Shown: piece by piece, positions 3,141 through 60,133 of the stretch | Layout: each line of letters begins with the position of its first letter | Position numbering within the stretch: position 1 is the first letter of the stretch | Assembly (NCBI GenBank): GCA_946185285.1 | Contig: CAMHIS010000003.1 | Coordinates: forward strand, 1 to 64,000 | Length of the DNA stretch: 64,000 nt | Direction: 5' to 3' | From: an uncultured Prevotellaceae bacterium | Lineage (GTDB): Bacteria; Bacteroidota; Bacteroidia; Bacteroidales; Bacteroidaceae | Translations under genes and position numbers: made by a program | The notes under the pieces: model-generated | Database searches by the model: none | What the model was told of the DNA's origin: nothing | What the model saw: only the letters and a program-made list of their open reading frames with translations

Positions 3141-4115
3141 ATGTTATTGAATATTGTATTGATTGTCATCGGCGTGGCGCTCGTGCTTTGGGGCGCCGAC
3201 AGACTGACGGAAGGAGCATCGGGACTGGCTCGGCGGATGAACGTGCCCGAGATAGTGATTGGACTGACGATTGTGGCGGCGGGCACGTCGGCACCTGAGC
3301 TGTTCGTCAGCTTAGTGTCAGCCTTGAAGGGCACGCCCGACATGGCGCTGGGTAACGTTGTCGGCTCGAACACTTTCAACACGCTGCTCATCGTGGGCTG
3401 CGCGGCGATGGTGGCTCCGATGGTGATTGCGAAATCGACGGTGAAGAAGGATATCCCGTTTACAGTCGTTGCCTCTGTGCTGCTGTTGGCGGCCTGCATG
3501 GACTTCCTGCCGACGGGCAACATCAGCGGTCATGAGCTCAGCCGCATGGACGGGCTGCTGCTGTTGGCGGGGTTCGCCGTGTTTATGTTTTATACGTTCA
3601 GGGTGGCTGCGACAAAGTCGCAGCAAACGAGAGAAGGGGAGGAGGACGGTGCTGTCACGACGATGGGCGTCTGGAAGGGCGTGCTGTTTGTGGTGATTGG
3701 ACTGGCGTGCCTGATCTTCGGCAGTAACCTGTTTGTGGATTCGGCCACCGACGTGGCCCGCGAGTTGAACATCAGCGAGGGCGTCATTGGTCTGACCATC
3801 GTGGCCGGCGGCACGTCGATGCCCGAACTGGCCACGAGCGTGGTGGCAGCCCGCAAGGGGCAGTCGGCCATCGCCATCGGCAACGTCATCGGCTCAAACG
3901 TCTTCAACATCCTGCTCATCCTCGGTCTGACGGCTACCATCAGTCCGATGGCGATACAGGGCATCACCTTGGTCGACCTGTTGGTCATGCTGGCCAGCGT
4001 GCTGATGGTCTGGGGCTTCTCCTATACAAAATACACGGTCGCCCGTTGGGAGGGCGCCGTGCTTGTTTTGGTGTTCTTAGGCTATATGGCCTGGCTCTGG
4101 CAGTCTATCGCCTGA
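3141..4115 (+). CDS. Calcium/sodium antiporter (YrbG-type)
   Basis: Two alpha repeats: GLTIVAAGTSAPELFVS...GNVVGSNTFN and GLTIVAGGTSMPELATS...GNVIGSNVFN; ATG 3141 preferred because ATG 3117 is inside the hairpin. Confidence 0.9.
   Translation: MLLNIVLIVIGVALVLWGADRLTEGASGLARRMNVPEIVIGLTIVAAGTSAPELFVSLVSALKGTPDMALGNVVGSNTFNTLLIVGCAAMVAPMVIAKSTVKKDIPFTVVASVLLLAACMDFLPTGNISGHELSRMDGLLLLAGFAVFMFYTFRVAATKSQQTREGEEDGAVTTMGVWKGVLFVVIGLACLIFGSNLFVDSATDVARELNISEGVIGLTIVAGGTSMPELATSVVAARKGQSAIAIGNVIGSNVFNILLILGLTATISPMAIQGITLVDLLVMLASVLMVWGFSYTKYTVARWEGAVLVLVFLGYMAWLWQSIA
3606..3641. repeat. REP-like element inside the Na+/Ca2+ antiporter gene
   Basis: GCTGCGACAAAGTCGCAGCAAACGAGAGAAGGGGAG matches the RAYT-associated REP. 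Confidence 0.85.
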
Positions 4116-14553: not shown

Positions 14554-14659
14554 TTGCGACGGAGTCGCAATGCACGAGGGAAGGGGCGGTTTCAGTAAAG
14601 CGCCCCTTCCCTCGCTTTCCAGCCGCCCCTTCCCTCGTTTGCTGCGACTCCGTCGCAGC
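14554..14659. repeat. REP/BIME-like inverted pair 3' of the RAYT gene
   Basis: TTGCGACGGAGTCGCAATGCACGAGGGAAGGGGCGG ... GCCGCCCCTTCCCTCGTTTGCTGCGACTCCGTCGCAGC. Confidence 0.85.
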
Positions 14660-18873: not shown

Positions 18874-19021
18874 TCGCGCATGCGCGCGTAATTGCCATTT
18901 CTACTTTTTATCCCACACTTCTGACACTTCCCACACCTGGAAACAACCAAATTCAGGTGTGGGAAGTGTTGGAAGTGTTGGTTGTTTTTCCTTATCCGCT
19001 TCATAATGCGCGTGCGCGCGA
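18874..19021. repeat. Nested long inverted repeat
   Basis: Inner arms 18912-18939/18954-18981 (CCCACACTTCTGACACTTCCCACACCTG / CAGGTGTGGGAAGTGTTGGAAGTGTTGG); outer GCGCATGCGCGCGTAA / AATGCGCGTGCGCGCG. Confidence 0.85.
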
Positions 19022-19227: not shown

Positions 19228-22200
19228 ATGAATATGAGGAAACATACTGTTGTCGCCCTTTTGGCTATTTGCTCGCTGGGCGCCCAGGCCCAGAGCCTGC
19301 TCTACCCGAAGCACTTCGACCTGCAGGAGGTCACCCTGCTCGACGGGCCGATGAAGACCGCCTTGGACAAAAACATCGAACTGCTGATGAAGTACGACGT
19401 CAACCGCCTGCTGACACCCTTCGTGCGCCAGGCCGGACTGGCATCGACCACCGACAAGACCAGCAAGTACTATAACTGGCTGACGAAGCACCCCAACTTC
19501 CCCAACTGGGGCGGCGACGCGGGCTTCGACCTGAGCGGCCACGTCGGTGGCCACTATGTGTCGGCACTGGCTATGGCCTACGCCGCCTCGCACGACGAGG
19601 CGCAGCGCACGAAGCTGAAGGAGCGCTTGGACTATATGCTCGAGGTACTGAAGGACTGCCAGGACCAGTACGACCAGAACACCGAGGGCCTCTACGGCTT
19701 CATCGGCGGCCAGCCCATCAACGACTCGTGGAAGGCCCTCTACAAGGGCGACCTGTCGAAGATTCAAGGCAACTGGGGCTGGGTGCCGTTCTACTGTCAG
19801 CACAAGGTGCTGGCCGGTCTGCGCGATGCCTACGTCTACGCCCATAGCGACGCGGCCAAGGAACTGTTCCACAAGATGGCCGACTGGAGTGTCAACCTCG
19901 TGGCGAAGGTGTCGGAGAGCGCCTTCCAGGGCTTCCTCGGCTGTGAGCACGGCGGCATGAACGAGACGCTGCTCGACGCCTACCTGATCTTTGGCGACAA
20001 GAAGTACCTGACGGCGGCCAAGAAATACTCGCACAAGGACATGATCAACAACATGCAGACGCTCAACACCACGTTCCTCGACGGCAAGCACGCCAACACG
20101 CAGGTGCCCAAGTACATCGGCTTTGAGCGCATCGGAGAAGTTGAGAGTGGAGAATTGAGAATGGAGAATTATGATTACCTTCAAGGCGTGCAAGCAAATC
20201 ATAATTCTCAATTCTCAACTCTCAATTCTCAATACCTGAAGGCTGCCGAGAACTTCTGGACCGACGTGGCCAAGAACCGCACCGTCTGCATCGGCGGCAA
20301 TTCTGTTGGCGAGCACTTCCTGTCGAAGAGCAACAGCAACCGCTACATCGACCAGCTGGACGGCCCCGAGTCGTGCAACACGAACAACATGCTGAAACTC
20401 AGCGAGATGCTGGCCGACCGCACCGGCGATGCCAAGTACGTCGACTTCTACGAGCAGGCCACGTGGAACCACATCCTCTCGACCCAGGACCCTGAGACTG
20501 GCGGCTACGTCTACTTCACCACCCTGCGCCCACAGGGCTACCGCATCTACTCAAAGGTGAACCAGGGCATGTGGTGCTGCGTGGGCACGGGCATGGAGAA
20601 CCACTCCAAGTACGGTCACTTCGTCTACACCCACGACGCCGACAAGACCCTCTACGTCAACCTCTTCACCCCCTCCCTTCTCGTGAGTGACGACTTCGTC
20701 GTCACCCAGGAGACCGCCTTCCCCGACCAGCAGGCGACGACCCTTACCATCGGCAAGGCCGGCCACTACACCGTGGCCATCCGCCATCCGCAGTGGGTGG
20801 GCGAGGGCTTTGCCATTGCGGTCAACGGTCAGCCCGTTGACATCACCGTCAAGCAGGGCACCGCCAGCTATGCCACCGTCAGCCGCGACTGGGCCGAGGG
20901 CGACAAGATAGAGGTCAGCCTGCCCATGGAGCTGCGCTACGAGCCGTGCCCCAACTACACCGACTATATCGCCTTCAAATACGGTCCCATCCTCTTGGCT
21001 GCCCAGACTTCCGACGGCGAGAAGCTGCAGAACGAGTATGCCGGTGCCGGTCGTATGGACCACGCCCCCGGCTCGATGGCCTCGTCGAAGAAGCTGACGA
21101 CGGCCCCGATGCTCATCGGCAACCGCGCCGACGTGCTGAGCCGCATCGAGCGTCTGCGCACGCCTGAGCTGACGTTCACAATCGACGTCAGCCGCCCCGG
21201 CGTCGACAGCTACAAGTGGTCGACGCTCAAGCTTGTACCCTTCTACAAGATCCACCACGCCCGCTACGCCTGCTACTGGTACCAGCAGACCGAGGAGAAC
21301 TTCAAGAAGAGCTCGATGGCAGCCGACGAGAATGCCGCTGCCGCACTGGCCGAGCGCACGCTCGACTTCGTGGCTCCCGGCGAACAGCAGAGCGAGGCCG
21401 GCCACGAGGTCAAGTACTCCAGCGAGTCGACCACGGGCAACTACAACGGCGAAGCCTACCGCGACGCCCGTGCCAACGGCTACATCCAGTACACGCTCTA
21501 TAATAAAAAAGGTGTGAAGGACAGCCTCGCCGTCATGCTCCGCTTTACTACAGCCGACAAGGGCCGCAAGGGCACGCTCTCCGTCGACGGCAAGAAGATT
21601 GCCGACATCACCGTGGCCTCGTCGGTGAAGGACGCCGAGAACGGTTTTTATAACGTGGAGTACGCCATACCTGCCGCATTGGCCGTCGACAATGACGGCA
21701 ACGCCAAGGAGAAGTTCGTCGTGCGCCTGACGGCCTCGTCGTCGACGCTGATTCCCGGCCTGTACTACATGCGCCTGATGAGCGGCTACGAGGAGAACCC
21801 CGACCGCTACAAGTTCGTCTGCAACCAGTGGACGACGGGCGACGCTGGCCGTGTCAGTGCCTCGAACATCACCTACGACACGAAGCAGAACATCATCCAC
21901 GTCAATGCCGGGACGGGGGCCAACAATGTGGCGCTGACGCTGAATTACGGCAACCTTGACTATACCATCGCCAGTACGCAGAATTATCTCGTCGTGCGCG
22001 GCACGAACCTGAAGACGACCACTGGCGCCAGCTACCTCTGGTGGCTCAACGGCACGAACAAGGGTTCGCAGGTGGCTCCCACCACCGTCAGCGAGGTTAC
22101 CATCGACGGCCAGAAACAGCAGGTCATCGCCTGGGACATGACGAAGAGCAACCTCTACGACAACTTCAGCGGCGACCGCCCCTCGGTATGCATGGGCCAG

Positions 22201-22419
22201 ACCATCTTCGGCCTGACCTCCACAACGGGCAAGAGCGACATCCTCGATATCCAGTTCGTTGAGGACGTGGAGCAGTACGTACAGACTGTCACGTCGGTCA
22301 GCGCAGCTGTCCGTCCATCGACTACTGACAAGACATACTACACCCTCGGCGGCGTCAAAGTTGACAGTCCGTCGAGGGGTGTCTATCTCGCAGGCGGCAA
22401 GGCCGTGCTCATCAAGTAA
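19228..22419 (+). CDS. DUF1680 (GH127/GH146-like) beta-L-arabinofuranosidase
   Basis: FDLQEVTLLDGPMKTALDKNIELLMKYDVNRLL, GHVGGHYVSALAMAYAAS, WCCVGTGMENHSKYG. Confidence 0.88.
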   Translation: MNMRKHTVVALLAICSLGAQAQSLLYPKHFDLQEVTLLDGPMKTALDKNIELLMKYDVNRLLTPFVRQAGLASTTDKTSKYYNWLTKHPNFPNWGGDAGFDLSGHVGGHYVSALAMAYAASHDEAQRTKLKERLDYMLEVLKDCQDQYDQNTEGLYGFIGGQPINDSWKALYKGDLSKIQGNWGWVPFYCQHKVLAGLRDAYVYAHSDAAKELFHKMADWSVNLVAKVSESAFQGFLGCEHGGMNETLLDAYLIFGDKKYLTAAKKYSHKDMINNMQTLNTTFLDGKHANTQVPKYIGFERIGEVESGELRMENYDYLQGVQANHNSQFSTLNSQYLKAAENFWTDVAKNRTVCIGGNSVGEHFLSKSNSNRYIDQLDGPESCNTNNMLKLSEMLADRTGDAKYVDFYEQATWNHILSTQDPETGGYVYFTTLRPQGYRIYSKVNQGMWCCVGTGMENHSKYGHFVYTHDADKTLYVNLFTPSLLVSDDFVVTQETAFPDQQATTLTIGKAGHYTVAIRHPQWVGEGFAIAVNGQPVDITVKQGTASYATVSRDWAEGDKIEVSLPMELRYEPCPNYTDYIAFKYGPILLAAQTSDGEKLQNEYAGAGRMDHAPGSMASSKKLTTAPMLIGNRADVLSRIERLRTPELTFTIDVSRPGVDSYKWSTLKLVPFYKIHHARYACYWYQQTEENFKKSSMAADENAAAALAERTLDFVAPGEQQSEAGHEVKYSSESTTGNYNGEAYRDARANGYIQYTLYNKKGVKDSLAVMLRFTTADKGRKGTLSVDGKKIADITVASSVKDAENGFYNVEYAIPAALAVDNDGNAKEKFVVRLTASSSTLIPGLYYMRLMSGYEENPDRYKFVCNQWTTGDAGRVSASNITYDTKQNIIHVNAGTGANNVALTLNYGNLDYTIASTQNYLVVRGTNLKTTTGASYLWWLNGTNKGSQVAPTTVSEVTIDGQKQQVIAWDMTKSNLYDNFSGDRPSVCMGQTIFGLTSTTGKSDILDIQFVEDVEQYVQTVTSVSAAVRPSTTDKTYYTLGGVKVDSPSRGVYLAGGKAVLIK
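20139..20232. repeat. In-frame palindromic element (ENYDY element copy 1)
   Basis: GAGAATTGAGAATGGAGAATTATGATTACCTTCAAGGCGTGCAAGCAAATCATAATTCTCAATTCTC; encodes GELRMENYDYLQGVQANHNSQFSTLNSQ. Confidence 0.9.
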
Positions 22420-36219: not shown

Positions 36220-39200
36220 ATGGTGGTAAAAGCCTGGAGAGAAATGGTGACCATCCCGACCTACGAGGTGGGGAAGGCCGAGAAGAACCCGATATTCCTT
36301 GAGAAGCGGGTGTATCAGGGAAGCAGCGGTGTGGTTTATCCGTACCCCGTCATTGAGTCGATAGCCGACGAGCCGACTCCGAAGGAGTGGCAGGCTATCT
36401 GGCTGGAGAATGAGTATATCAAGGTGATGGTGCTGCCCGAACTGGGCGGCCGCATCCAGATGGCGTACGACAAGGTGAAGCAGCGCCACTTCGTGTACTA
36501 CAACCACGTCATCAAGCCGGCTCTCGTCGGACTGTGCGGACCGTGGATCAGCGGCGGCATAGAGTTCAACTGGCCGCAGCACCACCGTCCGTCGACCTAC
36601 TCGCCCGTCGACTCGCTGATTGTGGAGAACGAGGACGGGAGCGTCACCGTCTGGGTGAACGAGATGGAGCGGATGTTCCATCAGAAGGGCGCTGCAGGCT
36701 TCACGCTGCGCCCCGGCTGTGCCTATTTAGAGATTCAGGGGCGCGTCAGCAACCGCACGCCGCTGCCGCAGACGTTCCTCTGGTGGGCCAACCCCGCCGT
36801 CGAGGTGAACGACCAGTACCAGAGCGTGTTCCCGCCCGACGTGAACGCCGTCTTCGACCACGGCAAGCGCGCCGTCTCCAGCTTCCCCATCGCCACGGGC
36901 ACCTACTACAAGATGGACTACTCGGCCGGCGTCGACATCTCGAACTACCGCAACATCCCCGTGCCTACGAGCTATATGGCCGTCAACTCGAAGTACGACT
37001 TCGAGGGCGGCTACGAGAACGACTCGCACGGCGGCATGCTCCATGTGGCCAGCCACCACTTCTCGCCCGGCAAGAAGCAGTGGACATGGGGCAACGGCGA
37101 CTTCGGGCGGGCGTGGGACAGGAACCTGACGGACCCTATTGAGAATGGAGAATGGAGAATTGAGAATTATGATTACCATCAAGGCGAACAAGCCACGAAC
37201 AGTAATCATAATTCTCCATCCTCAATTCCTAATTCTCAATTAAGGAGGGGATACCGTCCCTACATCGAGCTGATGGCCGGCGTCTACACCGAGAACCAGC
37301 CCGACTTCACGTGGCTCATGCCCTACGAGGAGAAGCAGTTCGTGCAGTACTTCATGCCCTACCGCGAGATCGGAATCGTGAAGCAGGCGTCGAAGGACTT
37401 CATATTAAGCCTCTCCCCCGACCCCTCTCCAACAGGAGAGGGAAGGTCGGTTACCATCAAGGTGCTGGCTACGTCGAAGCAGGAGGTGCGCATCGTGCTG
37501 CGCCACGACGACGGCAAGGTGTACTATGACCAGATGGTGACGCTGTCGCCCGAGGAGGTCTTTCAGCAGACGGTGGATGTGAACGGCACGAAGATGGACC
37601 GCCTGACACTGACGGTGGGCAGTCTGACGTGGCACGCTGAGCCTGACGAGATACGCCCCATCCCCGACGCCGCCGAGGCCGCCCTGCCGCCTGAGGACAC
37701 GAAGACCAACGACCAGCTCTACCTGACGGGACTGCACTTAGAGCAGTACCGCCACGCCACGTGGTCGGCCCTCGACTACTACGAAGAGGCCCTGCGCCGC
37801 GACCCCAACGACGTGCGCTGCCTGAACCAGACGGGACTGTGGTACCTGCGCCGCGGGCGGTTCGACAAGGCGGAGCCCTATCTGCGAAAGGCCGTGAAGA
37901 TATGGCAGAAGCGCAACCCGAACCCCTACGACGGCGAGGCCATCTTCAACCTCGCCCTCTGTCTGAAGTACCAACGCCGCACGCAGGAGGCCTACGAGCT
38001 GTTCTGGAAGTCGACGTGGAACAAGGCGTGGGCCGATGCCGGCTACTTCGAGGCCGCCTGCATCAGCGTGAGCCAAGGCCGCTACGACGACGCCCTCGAC
38101 GAGCTGGACCGCTGTCTCATCTTCAACAGCTGCAACCACAAGGCGCGGGCGTTGAAGGCCGCCGTGCTGCGGTTGGTTGCGACGGAGTCGCAACACACGA
38201 GGAAGGCGTTCTTGGAGGAGAGCATTCTGCTTGACCGCTTTAATTATGGCTGTCGATACGAACTGTACCTGCTGACGGGGGACGAGGACGTGCTCGGCGA
38301 GATGACCACGATGATGCACGGCAACGTCTATAACTACCATGAGCTGGCGCTCGACTACGCGCAGGCCGGACTGTGGCAGGAGTGCTCGGACGTGCTGAAG
38401 CTCTGTCCGGCGGAGCATCCGCTCACCTACTATTATTTAGGGTGGGCACAGATGGGGTTGGGCGACGCCGTAGCTGCCAACGCCGCCTTCGAACAGGCAG
38501 AGCGGGTGGACAGCTACTGCTGCTTCCCCAACCGCTTAGAGGACGTCATTGTGCTGACGATGGCCAAGACGATGAACCCCGACGGGGCACGGGCGCCCTA
38601 TTACCTCGGTTGCCTGTATTACGACAAGCGGCAGTATGACGTGGCCATCGAGAACTGGGAGCTGTCGGCACGGCTCGACCCGCAGTTCCCGACCGTCTGG
38701 CGCAACCTGGCGCTGGCACGCTTCAACAAACAGGACAGGCGGGAGGAAGCATTGGCGTATATGGAGCGGGCCTTCAGCCTCGATGAGAGCGACGCCCGCG
38801 TGCTGATGGAACTCGACCAGCTCTACAAGCGCCTGCAGAAGCCCCATGACGAACGGCTCGTTTTCCTGCAGAAGTATCCCAAATTACTTCAGCAGCGAGA
38901 CGACCTCCGGCTGGAAGAGATAACCCTCCTCAATCAGGTAGGCCTCTACGGCGACGCCAAGGTGCTGCTCGACTGTCACCAGTTCCATCCATGGGAGGGC
39001 GGCGAAGGCAAGGTGAGCGGGCAGTACCAGATATGCCGGGTGGAGCTTGCAAAACAAGCTCTCACAAGAAAGGAACTGGATAAAGCCGCGCGTCTGTTGG
39101 AGGAGTGTCTTGTCTTCCCGCCACACCTCGGCGAAGGCAAGCTCTACGGTGCTCAGGACAATGACATCCTCTACTTCCTCGGGCGTTATGAGGAGGGAAC

Positions 39201-39588
39201 CGCCGGACCGACGGAGCCTGCCGCCGCCATGTACTATAACGACGCCAAGCCTGACAAGATTTTCTACGCCGGTCTCTGCTACCGCAAGTTAGGACAGGAG
39301 GACAAGGCGCGGAGCCTCTTCCACAAGCTCGTCAACTACGGCAAGCAGCACATCTTCGACCACGTCACGATGGACTACTTCGCCGTCTCGCTGCCCGACC
39401 TGCTCATCTGGGAAGACAACCTCGACACGAAGAACCTCATCCACTGTAAGTATATGCTCGCGCTCGGCTACTTGGGACTGGGCGACACAGAAAAAGCCCT
39501 GAGGTATCTCTCCGAGGTGGAAACCTTGGACATTAACCATCAGGGCATTCAACAGTTGCGAACGCTGATTGACAGCGGTCTGCTATAG
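36220..39588 (+). CDS. DUF5107 domain protein with TPR repeats
   Basis: N-terminal LENEYIKVMVLPELGGRIQMAYDK...GLCGPWISGGIEFNWPQHHRPST; TPR-like repeats downstream. Confidence 0.82.
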   Translation: MVVKAWREMVTIPTYEVGKAEKNPIFLEKRVYQGSSGVVYPYPVIESIADEPTPKEWQAIWLENEYIKVMVLPELGGRIQMAYDKVKQRHFVYYNHVIKPALVGLCGPWISGGIEFNWPQHHRPSTYSPVDSLIVENEDGSVTVWVNEMERMFHQKGAAGFTLRPGCAYLEIQGRVSNRTPLPQTFLWWANPAVEVNDQYQSVFPPDVNAVFDHGKRAVSSFPIATGTYYKMDYSAGVDISNYRNIPVPTSYMAVNSKYDFEGGYENDSHGGMLHVASHHFSPGKKQWTWGNGDFGRAWDRNLTDPIENGEWRIENYDYHQGEQATNSNHNSPSSIPNSQLRRGYRPYIELMAGVYTENQPDFTWLMPYEEKQFVQYFMPYREIGIVKQASKDFILSLSPDPSPTGEGRSVTIKVLATSKQEVRIVLRHDDGKVYYDQMVTLSPEEVFQQTVDVNGTKMDRLTLTVGSLTWHAEPDEIRPIPDAAEAALPPEDTKTNDQLYLTGLHLEQYRHATWSALDYYEEALRRDPNDVRCLNQTGLWYLRRGRFDKAEPYLRKAVKIWQKRNPNPYDGEAIFNLALCLKYQRRTQEAYELFWKSTWNKAWADAGYFEAACISVSQGRYDDALDELDRCLIFNSCNHKARALKAAVLRLVATESQHTRKAFLEESILLDRFNYGCRYELYLLTGDEDVLGEMTTMMHGNVYNYHELALDYAQAGLWQECSDVLKLCPAEHPLTYYYLGWAQMGLGDAVAANAAFEQAERVDSYCCFPNRLEDVIVLTMAKTMNPDGARAPYYLGCLYYDKRQYDVAIENWELSARLDPQFPTVWRNLALARFNKQDRREEALAYMERAFSLDESDARVLMELDQLYKRLQKPHDERLVFLQKYPKLLQQRDDLRLEEITLLNQVGLYGDAKVLLDCHQFHPWEGGEGKVSGQYQICRVELAKQALTRKELDKAARLLEECLVFPPHLGEGKLYGAQDNDILYFLGRYEEGTAGPTEPAAAMYYNDAKPDKIFYAGLCYRKLGQEDKARSLFHKLVNYGKQHIFDHVTMDYFAVSLPDLLIWEDNLDTKNLIHCKYMLALGYLGLGDTEKALRYLSEVETLDINHQGIQQLRTLIDSGLL
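37139..37242. repeat. In-frame palindromic element (ENYDY element copy 2)
   Basis: GAGAATTATGATTACCATCAAGGCGAACAAGC...GTAATCATAATTCTC; encodes ENGEWRIENYDYHQGEQATNSNHNSPSSIPNSQL. Confidence 0.9.
37409..37450. repeat. In-frame GC-rich hairpin (LSPDPSPTGEGRS)
   Basis: CCGACCCCTCTCCAACAGGAGAGGGAAGGTCGG. Confidence 0.8.
38176..38206. repeat. REP-like element inside DUF5107 gene
   Basis: GTTGCGACGGAGTCGCAACACACGAGGAAGG matches the RAYT-associated REP consensus. Confidence 0.85.
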
Positions 39589-46874: not shown

Positions 46875-48752
46875 ATGGAAAAACAAGAATTAGGGCTACT
46901 GAATAGCATTGACTATCCGGCTGACCTTAGGAAGTTATCGATTGACCAATTGCCTGAGGTTTGTAGGGAGTTACGGCAGGACATTGTCAGGGAGCTGTCG
47001 GTGAACCCCGGGCACCTGGCCTCGAGCCTCGGTGTGGCTGAGTTGACCGTCGCCCTCCACTATGTCTATGATACGCCCAACGACCGCATCGTTTGGGACG
47101 TGGGTCATCAGGCTTACGGCCATAAGATATTGACAGGGCGCCGCGAGCAGTTTGCCACCAACCGCAAGCTGGGCGGCATACGCCCGTTCCCGTCGCCACA
47201 GGAGAGCGAGTACGACTCGTTTGCCTGCGGCCACGCCTCGAACAGCATCTCGGCAGCGCTCGGCATGGCCGTTGCTGCCAAGCGGCAGGGCGAGAACCGC
47301 AAGGTGGTGGCCGTCATCGGCGACGGCGCCATGTCGGGTGGCCTGGCCTTCGAGGGACTGAACAACGTCTCGTCGTCGCCCAACGACCTGCTTATCATCC
47401 TCAACGACAACAACATGTCGATCGACCGCTCCGTAGGCGGCATGAAGCAATACCTGCTGGGCCTCAACACCAACAAGACCTACAACAGCCTGCGTTTCAA
47501 GGCCGGCCGGTGGCTGCACGGCAGGGGCATGATGAACGACGACCGGCGGAAGGGACTCATCCGGCTGTCGAACGCCATCAAGAGTGCCCTCTCCCACCAG
47601 CAGAACATCTTCGAGGGCATGAACATCCGCTACTTCGGACCGTTCGACGGCCACGACGTCAAGGAGCTGGTGCGTATACTCCGCGAAATCAAGGACATGA
47701 AGGGGCCGAAGCTGCTGCATATCCACACGCAGAAAGGTCACGGCTACGCGCCGGCCGAGAAGGACGTCACCACCTGGCACGCACCTGGCAAGTTCAACCC
47801 TGACACGGGCGAACGGCTGGTGGACAACGACCCCGACAAGCCCCAGAAGTATCAGGACGTGTTCGGACATACGCTGCTGGAGCTGGCCAAGCAGAACCCG
47901 AAGATTGTAGGCGTGACGCCGGCCATGCCCTCGGGCTGCTCGATGAACATCATGATGAAGGAAATGCCCGAGCGCACCTTCGACGTGGGCATTGCCGAGG
48001 GGCACGCCGTCACCTTCTCGGGCGGCATGGCCAAGGACGGCCTCATTCCCTTCTGCAACATCTACTCGGCCTTCGCTCAGAGAGCCTACGACAACATCAT
48101 ACACGACGTGGCCCTGCTCGGGCTGCACGTCGTCTTCTGCTTCGACCGCGCCGGACTGGTCGGCGAGGACGGCCCCACGCACCACGGCGCTTTCGACCTG
48201 GCCGCCCTGCGACCCGTTCCCAACCTGACCATCGCCTCGCCGATGGACGAGCATGAGCTGCGCCGGCTGATGTACACCGCCCAGCTGCCCGGCCAGGGGC
48301 CGTTCGTCATACGCTACCCCCGTGGCGGCGGCGTGCTCAAGGAGTGGCGCTGCCCCCTGGAGGCCGTCAAGGTAGGCACGGGCCGATGCCTGCTCAGCGG
48401 CAACGACGTTGCCGTGCTCAGCATAGGCCCCATCGGCAACGAAGCCCTGAAGGCTGCCAAGGAGACGGGAGCCGCCATGTACGACATGCGCTTCCTGAAG
48501 CCCCTCGACGAGGACATCCTCCACGAGGTGGGCCGCAGGTTCAGCCGCGTCGTCACCGTCGAGAACGGCGTCAGGGACGGCGGTCTCGGCTCTGCCGTCA
48601 CGGAGTGGCTCTCCGACCACGGCTACTCCACGCGTGTCACCCGCCTCGGACTGCCCACCGACCACTTCGTGGAGCACGGCACCGTCGCCGAGCTGCACCA
48701 CCTCTGCGGCACCGATGCCGAGGGAATCGCAAGAGCAATTCAAGCCCCCTGA
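46875..48752 (+). CDS. dxs: 1-deoxy-D-xylulose-5-phosphate synthase
   Basis: [75 protein letters not shown]. Confidence 0.95.
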
Positions 48753-48864
48753 GTCAGGGGGTTGGGGGTCTGAACAAGCGCAGGCTCCTATCACACATAA
48801 ATACCATTAAACGGTCTGAAACTAACACGCTTGTTCAGACCCCTATCCCCCTAACTTAGGGGGC
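48743..48864. repeat. Long inverted repeat between dxs and trkA
   Basis: Arms AGCCCCCTGAGTCAGGGGGTTGGGGGTCTGAACAAGCG / CGCTTGTTCAGACCCCTATCCCCCTAACTTAGGGGGC. Confidence 0.92.
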
Positions 48865-60059: not shown

Positions 60060-60133
60060 TGCAGCGGACTACAGGACTTCAGGACTTTCCCGGGGGCTTG
60101 CAACGTAGTCGTTAAGTCCTGTAGTCCGCTGCA
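60060..60133. repeat. Inverted repeat with 20-bp perfect arms between ATPase and DUF4435 genes
   Basis: TGCAGCGGACTACAGGACTT / AAGTCCTGTAGTCCGCTGCA. Confidence 0.95.

Follow-up and report, generated by a model that had tools for sequence, protein, structure and literature searches.

How can one and the same hairpin lie in the same reading frame of two unrelated genes? The question is raised by a stretch of 64,000 nucleotides from an uncultured Prevotellaceae bacterium (the whole of the DNA analyzed, here referred to as the window), in which homologous hairpins occur in a DUF5107/TPR gene and in a GH127 gene about 17 kb from it. The initial annotation had described their common central motif, their common frame and the arms of copy 2 as heptad repeats, and we confirmed all three, the arms of copy 2 being built of the 7-nt repeats GAGAATG and GAGAATT (Table 1). 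Both copies are in frame with the ORFs of their hosts, and copy 2 is read as the peptide IENGEWRIENYDYHQGEQATNSNHNSPSSIPNSQL. The two copies are 79% identical and 16,998 bp apart. Their 23-base centre, GAATTATGATTACCWTCAAGGCG, has two exact occurrences in the window (20166 and 37164), while none is expected from shuffles. Folded as RNA, copy 2 reaches -46.8 kcal/mol with a z of -6.45, a stability that none of the shuffles attained. Seven strong hairpins were found in the window, and the only ones located in genes are copies 1 and 2. The elements also differ from their surroundings in composition, with a codon-adaptation-like index of 0.31 and 0.30 vs 0.68 and 0.77 in the hosts.

Table 1. Positions in the window of the two in-gene palindromes, their parts and their host genes.
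Feature	Position	Strand	Description
Palindromic element copy 2	37138-37240	+	103-bp quasi-palindrome; arms 39 nt, 33 paired; loop 25 nt
Copy 2 left (sense) arm	37138-37176	+	GAGAATG GAGAATG GAGAATT GAGAATT, then core TATGATTAC
Copy 2 loop	37177-37201	+	between the 39-nt arms
Copy 2 right arm	37202-37240	+	GTAATCATAATTCTCCATCCTCAATTCCTAATTCTCAAT
Copy 2 codon at the family TGA site	37147-37149	+	GGA instead of in-frame TGA
Copy 2 right-arm paired triplet	37229-37231		other strand still reads stop (TAG)
Host gene of copy 2	36220-39588	+	1122-aa DUF5107 + TPR protein, intact
Palindromic element copy 1	20141-20232	+	arm 36 nt, 32 paired; loop 20 nt
Copy 1 codon at the family TGA site	20149-20151	+	GGA in place of TGA
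Host gene of copy 1	19228-22419	+	1063-aa beta-L-arabinofuranosidase-like (GH127) protein, intact

These two hairpins belong to a family whose copies are about 85–165 bp long, with the ends ATTGAG/CTCAAT, arms of 7-nt repeats (GAGAATT type), a core TATGATTA/TAATCATA and a variable loop. The genome-wide search with the central 30-mer that the initial annotation had proposed served poorly as a probe: it gave two copies in the genome itself and none in 148 other genomes searched, besides one in the MAG RUG14573, which is the orthologue of copy 1. It was replaced by an arm-based pattern (GAGAATTATGATT...AATCATAATTCTC, loop of 8–38 nt) and a covariance model, and through arms and core the family proved real. 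The dispersed unit is the hairpin with its variable loop, rather than the central 30-mer. The arm pattern is present in 5 of 89 genomes belonging to the genus. When GTDB (84,980 species) was scanned for exact arms, matches came from 29 contigs, all of them Prevotella, Xylanibacter or Prevotellaceae records except one MAG titled only "uncultured bacterium", and no copy was found in Rickettsiales. The covariance model, built from 36 copies and used in a DNA-only search of six genomes, yielded 12–72 matches per genome, both strands counted.

The pairing of the arms is supported by 51 cells with two-sided changes vs 16 in shuffles, and slid controls fail. Both arms of intergenic copies often share deviations from the consensus, even one 8-nt unit on both sides, and therefore either one arm is copied from the other or selection maintains the hairpin. 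At three loci (L004, L006 and L007; G000 C6:2592, C21:18146 and C21:20121), GAGAATT-like heptads run directly into ATGATTACCAAAAGC, where several lipoprotein-like genes whose signal peptides are similar apparently begin, and the left arm and core resemble a translation start there.

About 50 in-gene copies were read across 18 genomes, 40 of the loci read having been picked by protein profile and used for breadth only, outside the frame statistics. Each copy would add about 35 amino acids to its protein. The hosts include TypA, PurL (at two sites), LeuRS, RNase R, UxuA (mannonate dehydratase) and an IGHMBP2-type helicase; CCA transferase, RlmD, Mfd, ClpA, DnaG, IspG, MetH, MutY, UvrA and FeoB; and a GH88-family protein, a CobQ-like protein, patatin and aspartokinase-homoserine dehydrogenase. 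Conservation of the peptide over all these copies could speak for a true protein motif or domain gained by both proteins of the window. However, the majority of the copies are intergenic palindromes with stops, the hosts are unrelated, the inserts are foreign in composition (36% G+C in both elements vs 61% in the host genes) and orthologues without the insert exist. Homology at the protein level, which the initial annotation had already dismissed, is hardly credible.

Empty sites in relatives, which had likewise been proposed as a check, were found at TypA, PurL and DUF5107. In ten relatives TypA reads VIYKE(I/V)DGxKCEP(I/V)EEL, without insert. At TypA, PurL site 2 and DUF5107, the empty alleles also deviate in a few codons next to the insertion point, and in comparing these diverged alleles we saw neither a target-site duplication nor a clean boundary. 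Some insertions are also inherited across species, being common to sister species. The GH127 insertion is common to RUG14573 (2.0 kb of aligned gene 92% identical, the insert differing by two bases), and genomes G004 and G053 have three insertion sites in common, two in PurL and one in patatin. An artefact of metagenome assembly or binning might be suspected, as the genome of the window is fragmented (180 contigs, 71% complete) and most host genomes are metagenome-assembled, but it is extremely improbable: the same structures recur in many independent assemblies, the orthologous GH127 insertion lies in a second MAG, and a related copy is present in frame in a GH2 gene of an isolate, Xylanibacter rodentium.

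Other, unrelated palindromes were observed at the same tolerant sites. A GC-rich palindromic family (APLTPPEGG...LSPSGxxGG) occurs there in other species, in DUF5107 (L050 and L063) and PurL (L343), and the DUF5107 gene of L058 carries another heptad-type palindrome. In some relatives' orthologues, a single stop lies inside the six-frame match (L045 of G051 in DUF5107; L331 and L332 in PurL).

Frame statistics, also suggested at the outset, were taken from 80 loci, which are the best-scoring matches in the six genomes and no census. An ORF, taken as a stop-free span, covers 18 of these loci and none covers the other 62; homology was checked for most, not all, hosts. Locus L235 had seemed to be an in-gene copy read in a different frame, but it was not counted because its ORF appears to be a shadow frame. 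The remaining 17 in-gene copies, at 15 independent sites, all lie in one open frame, ENYDY...NHNSQFSTLNSQL (the ENYDY/NHNSQ frame), and their host genes are intact. This single frame came from the DNA-only search.

Further properties set these copies apart. First, they are open in the sense direction in every case scored, vs 6 of 43 intergenic copies in either direction. Second, stops have been lost from the sense strand only: GAGAATT-GAGAATT heptads place a TGA in the ENYDY frame, and the in-gene sense arms read GGA (12), TCA, TCT, AGA or CGA at this site. The opposite arms have a stop there in 11/16 cases and intergenic arms in 65/98, compared with 0/16 for the in-gene sense arms (p = 3e-7). 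The loop length is a multiple of three in 15/15 in-gene copies vs 12/43 intergenic ones (p = 6e-7). These p-values and those below overstate independence, given the relatedness of copies from one genome, the orthology of two in-gene pairs and the non-independence of both arms of a copy. Of the three frames, one is closed by the ATGATT core and was open in no case scored; either of the others can be opened. The alternative to the ENYDY frame would yield a hydrophobic peptide, RIMIT...VIIILN, and this may be the reason that the hydrophilic frame alone is seen. The element had been called "dispersed, frame-respecting". Dispersed it is, and its in-gene copies keep to one frame, but the element itself does not respect frame: most copies are intergenic, their loop lengths are distributed about equally among the three phases, and stops in the frame are usual.

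We consider it probable (about 0.85) that the hairpin is a non-autonomous dispersed palindrome of Prevotellaceae, of which only stop-free copies with a 3n loop and the hydrophilic frame persist in genes, translated as an extra loop of about 35 residues. The palindrome would spread as DNA into many places, mostly intergenic, presumably by transposition or copying. Copies in genes that carry a stop, a wrong loop phase or another frame would then be lost by selection, and a surviving insert, to judge from its sequence, would be translated and folded as an extra loop of an otherwise normal enzyme. Since the in-gene copies are a minority with a 3n loop and without the sense-arm stop, selection after insertion probably creates the frame bias and explains it best. 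As a candidate mobilising enzyme, the Y1 transposase that accompanies REP/RAYT repeats (TnpA-REP; Y1_Tnp, PF01797) was found in 12 of 14 element-rich vs 4 of 11 element-poor genomes and is missing from the element-rich G241 and G171; it is somewhat commoner in element-rich genomes but apparently not required. No autonomous partner came to light in these analyses.

The insert might also be removed before or during translation, as an RNA mini-intron or by ribosome bypass of the hairpin. The hairpin is highly stable and lies within core genes, and ribosome bypass of hairpins has a precedent in yeast mitochondria. However, the open frame and the 3n loop are near-absolute in genes, and removal is very unlikely because neither excision nor bypass would need them.

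A more serious alternative is that in-gene copies descend from in-gene copies, so that the frame is the property of a coding-adapted sublineage and not only the outcome of selection after insertion. Such a sublineage would pass from one gene to the next as a hairpin that is open and asymmetric. Right arms of in-gene copies resemble one another more than they resemble arms from intergenic copies (0.156 vs 0.258; p = 0.0005 by permutation), and the CTCAACTCTC variant is present in 10/16 in-gene right arms vs 25/98 arms of intergenic copies (p = 0.006). Symmetric vs one-sided arm changes number 3 vs 158 in genes and 169 vs 424 in intergenic copies, and species-specific heptads recur in the in-gene copies of one species, for example G031. 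On the other hand, the nearest neighbour is another in-gene arm for only 4 of the 16 in-gene right arms, and the intergenic copies that are already open in the ENYDY frame imply that a simple filter suffices. This test of descent is suggestive but mixed, and we regard the sublineage as less likely than not.

Several known repeats resemble the element. Rickettsia palindromic elements (RPE; Ogata et al. 2000, 2002) are about 105–146 bp long and are found both in intergenic regions and in frame in conserved genes; their extra peptide is tolerated, target-site duplication has not been established for them, and the Rickettsia Gmk protein is reported to be made with its insert and to be active (PMC2229807). 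The Prevotellaceae element shares with RPE the dispersed palindromes of about 100–150 bp, the in-frame position in intact conserved genes and the empty sites in relatives. It differs in belonging to Bacteroidota, in its 7-nt-repeat arms and core and in its hosts, which are gut and rumen bacteria instead of obligate intracellular ones. Wolbachia palindromic elements (WPE; Ogata et al. 2005) are stop-free in-frame inserts, for example in addA, addB and priA (PMC4224334), and in this respect the conserved genes described here are alike, but WPE are of Rickettsiales and thus of another lineage and sequence. The element does not appear to belong to the RPE or WPE sequence families, judging by the exact-arm scan of GTDB, which matches only Prevotellaceae-type records.

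MITEs with ORFs (ERIC/RU-1, YPAL/RU-2 and the 107-bp form of Correia) sometimes fuse in frame to genes (PMC2229807), and therefore the Prevotellaceae element is not categorically new. Like them it is short, non-autonomous and bounded by inverted repeats. In most of those MITEs the terminal repeats are short and the target site is duplicated, whereas our element has heptad-array arms, showed no duplication and sits within core enzymes. REPs of the REP/RAYT system are also palindromic and dispersed, but they are 20–40 bp long with GTAG/CGTC tags (PMC3733652), while the Prevotellaceae copies are longer and begin and end with ATTGAG/CTCAAT. BrickBuilt, a MITE of P. gingivalis, is likewise a dispersed element of Bacteroidota with tandem repeats; its unit is 23 nt and it is always intergenic (PMC4596501), in contrast to the 7-nt repeats and in-gene copies found here. 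PARCEL repeats, tandem amphipathic modules mostly of surface proteins (PMC2996958), share the coding sequence with dyad symmetry and the apparent mobility, but the Prevotellaceae element forms single inserts in unrelated enzymes.

By its sequence, the element appears to act as RPE and WPE do, but it is distinct from them and belongs to another phylum. We found no earlier report of such an element in Bacteroidota in the open-access literature, most subscription papers lying outside that scope. Tentatively, and with more doubt than confidence, we suggest a second independent origin of protein-coding palindromes in gut and rumen Bacteroidota, together with a coding-adapted sublineage that moves between genes as an open peptide and shares tolerated sites in core enzymes with unrelated palindrome families. 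If so, these genomes would amount to a naturally occurring insertion scan of proteins that are essential. Protein-coding palindromes have so far been described mainly in Rickettsia and Wolbachia, which are reduced intracellular bacteria; many one-frame inserts in core enzymes of bacteria that abound in the rumen and gut would make repeats a more general source of new protein segments. Both states exist for study, genes with and without the insert as well as open and closed copies. Moreover, stop loss on the sense arm alone, with the ancestral base still on the opposite arm, would document selection on translation with unusual clarity.

The window contains further palindromes. The DUF5107 gene has a second short in-frame palindrome at 37410-37445, CCCCTCTCCAACAGGAGAGGG, with the peptide LSPDPSPTGEGRS, and relatives differ in sequence at this place. 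A third palindrome of the same gene, at 38176-38208, consists of GTTGCGACGGAGTCGCAAC followed by CACGAGGAAGG and belongs to the same family as the window repeats at 3606, 14553 and 15221. Intergenic hairpins of other sequence families, some with heptad-like arms, are located at 48744-48864, 14574-14638, 18915-18978 and 60060-60133.
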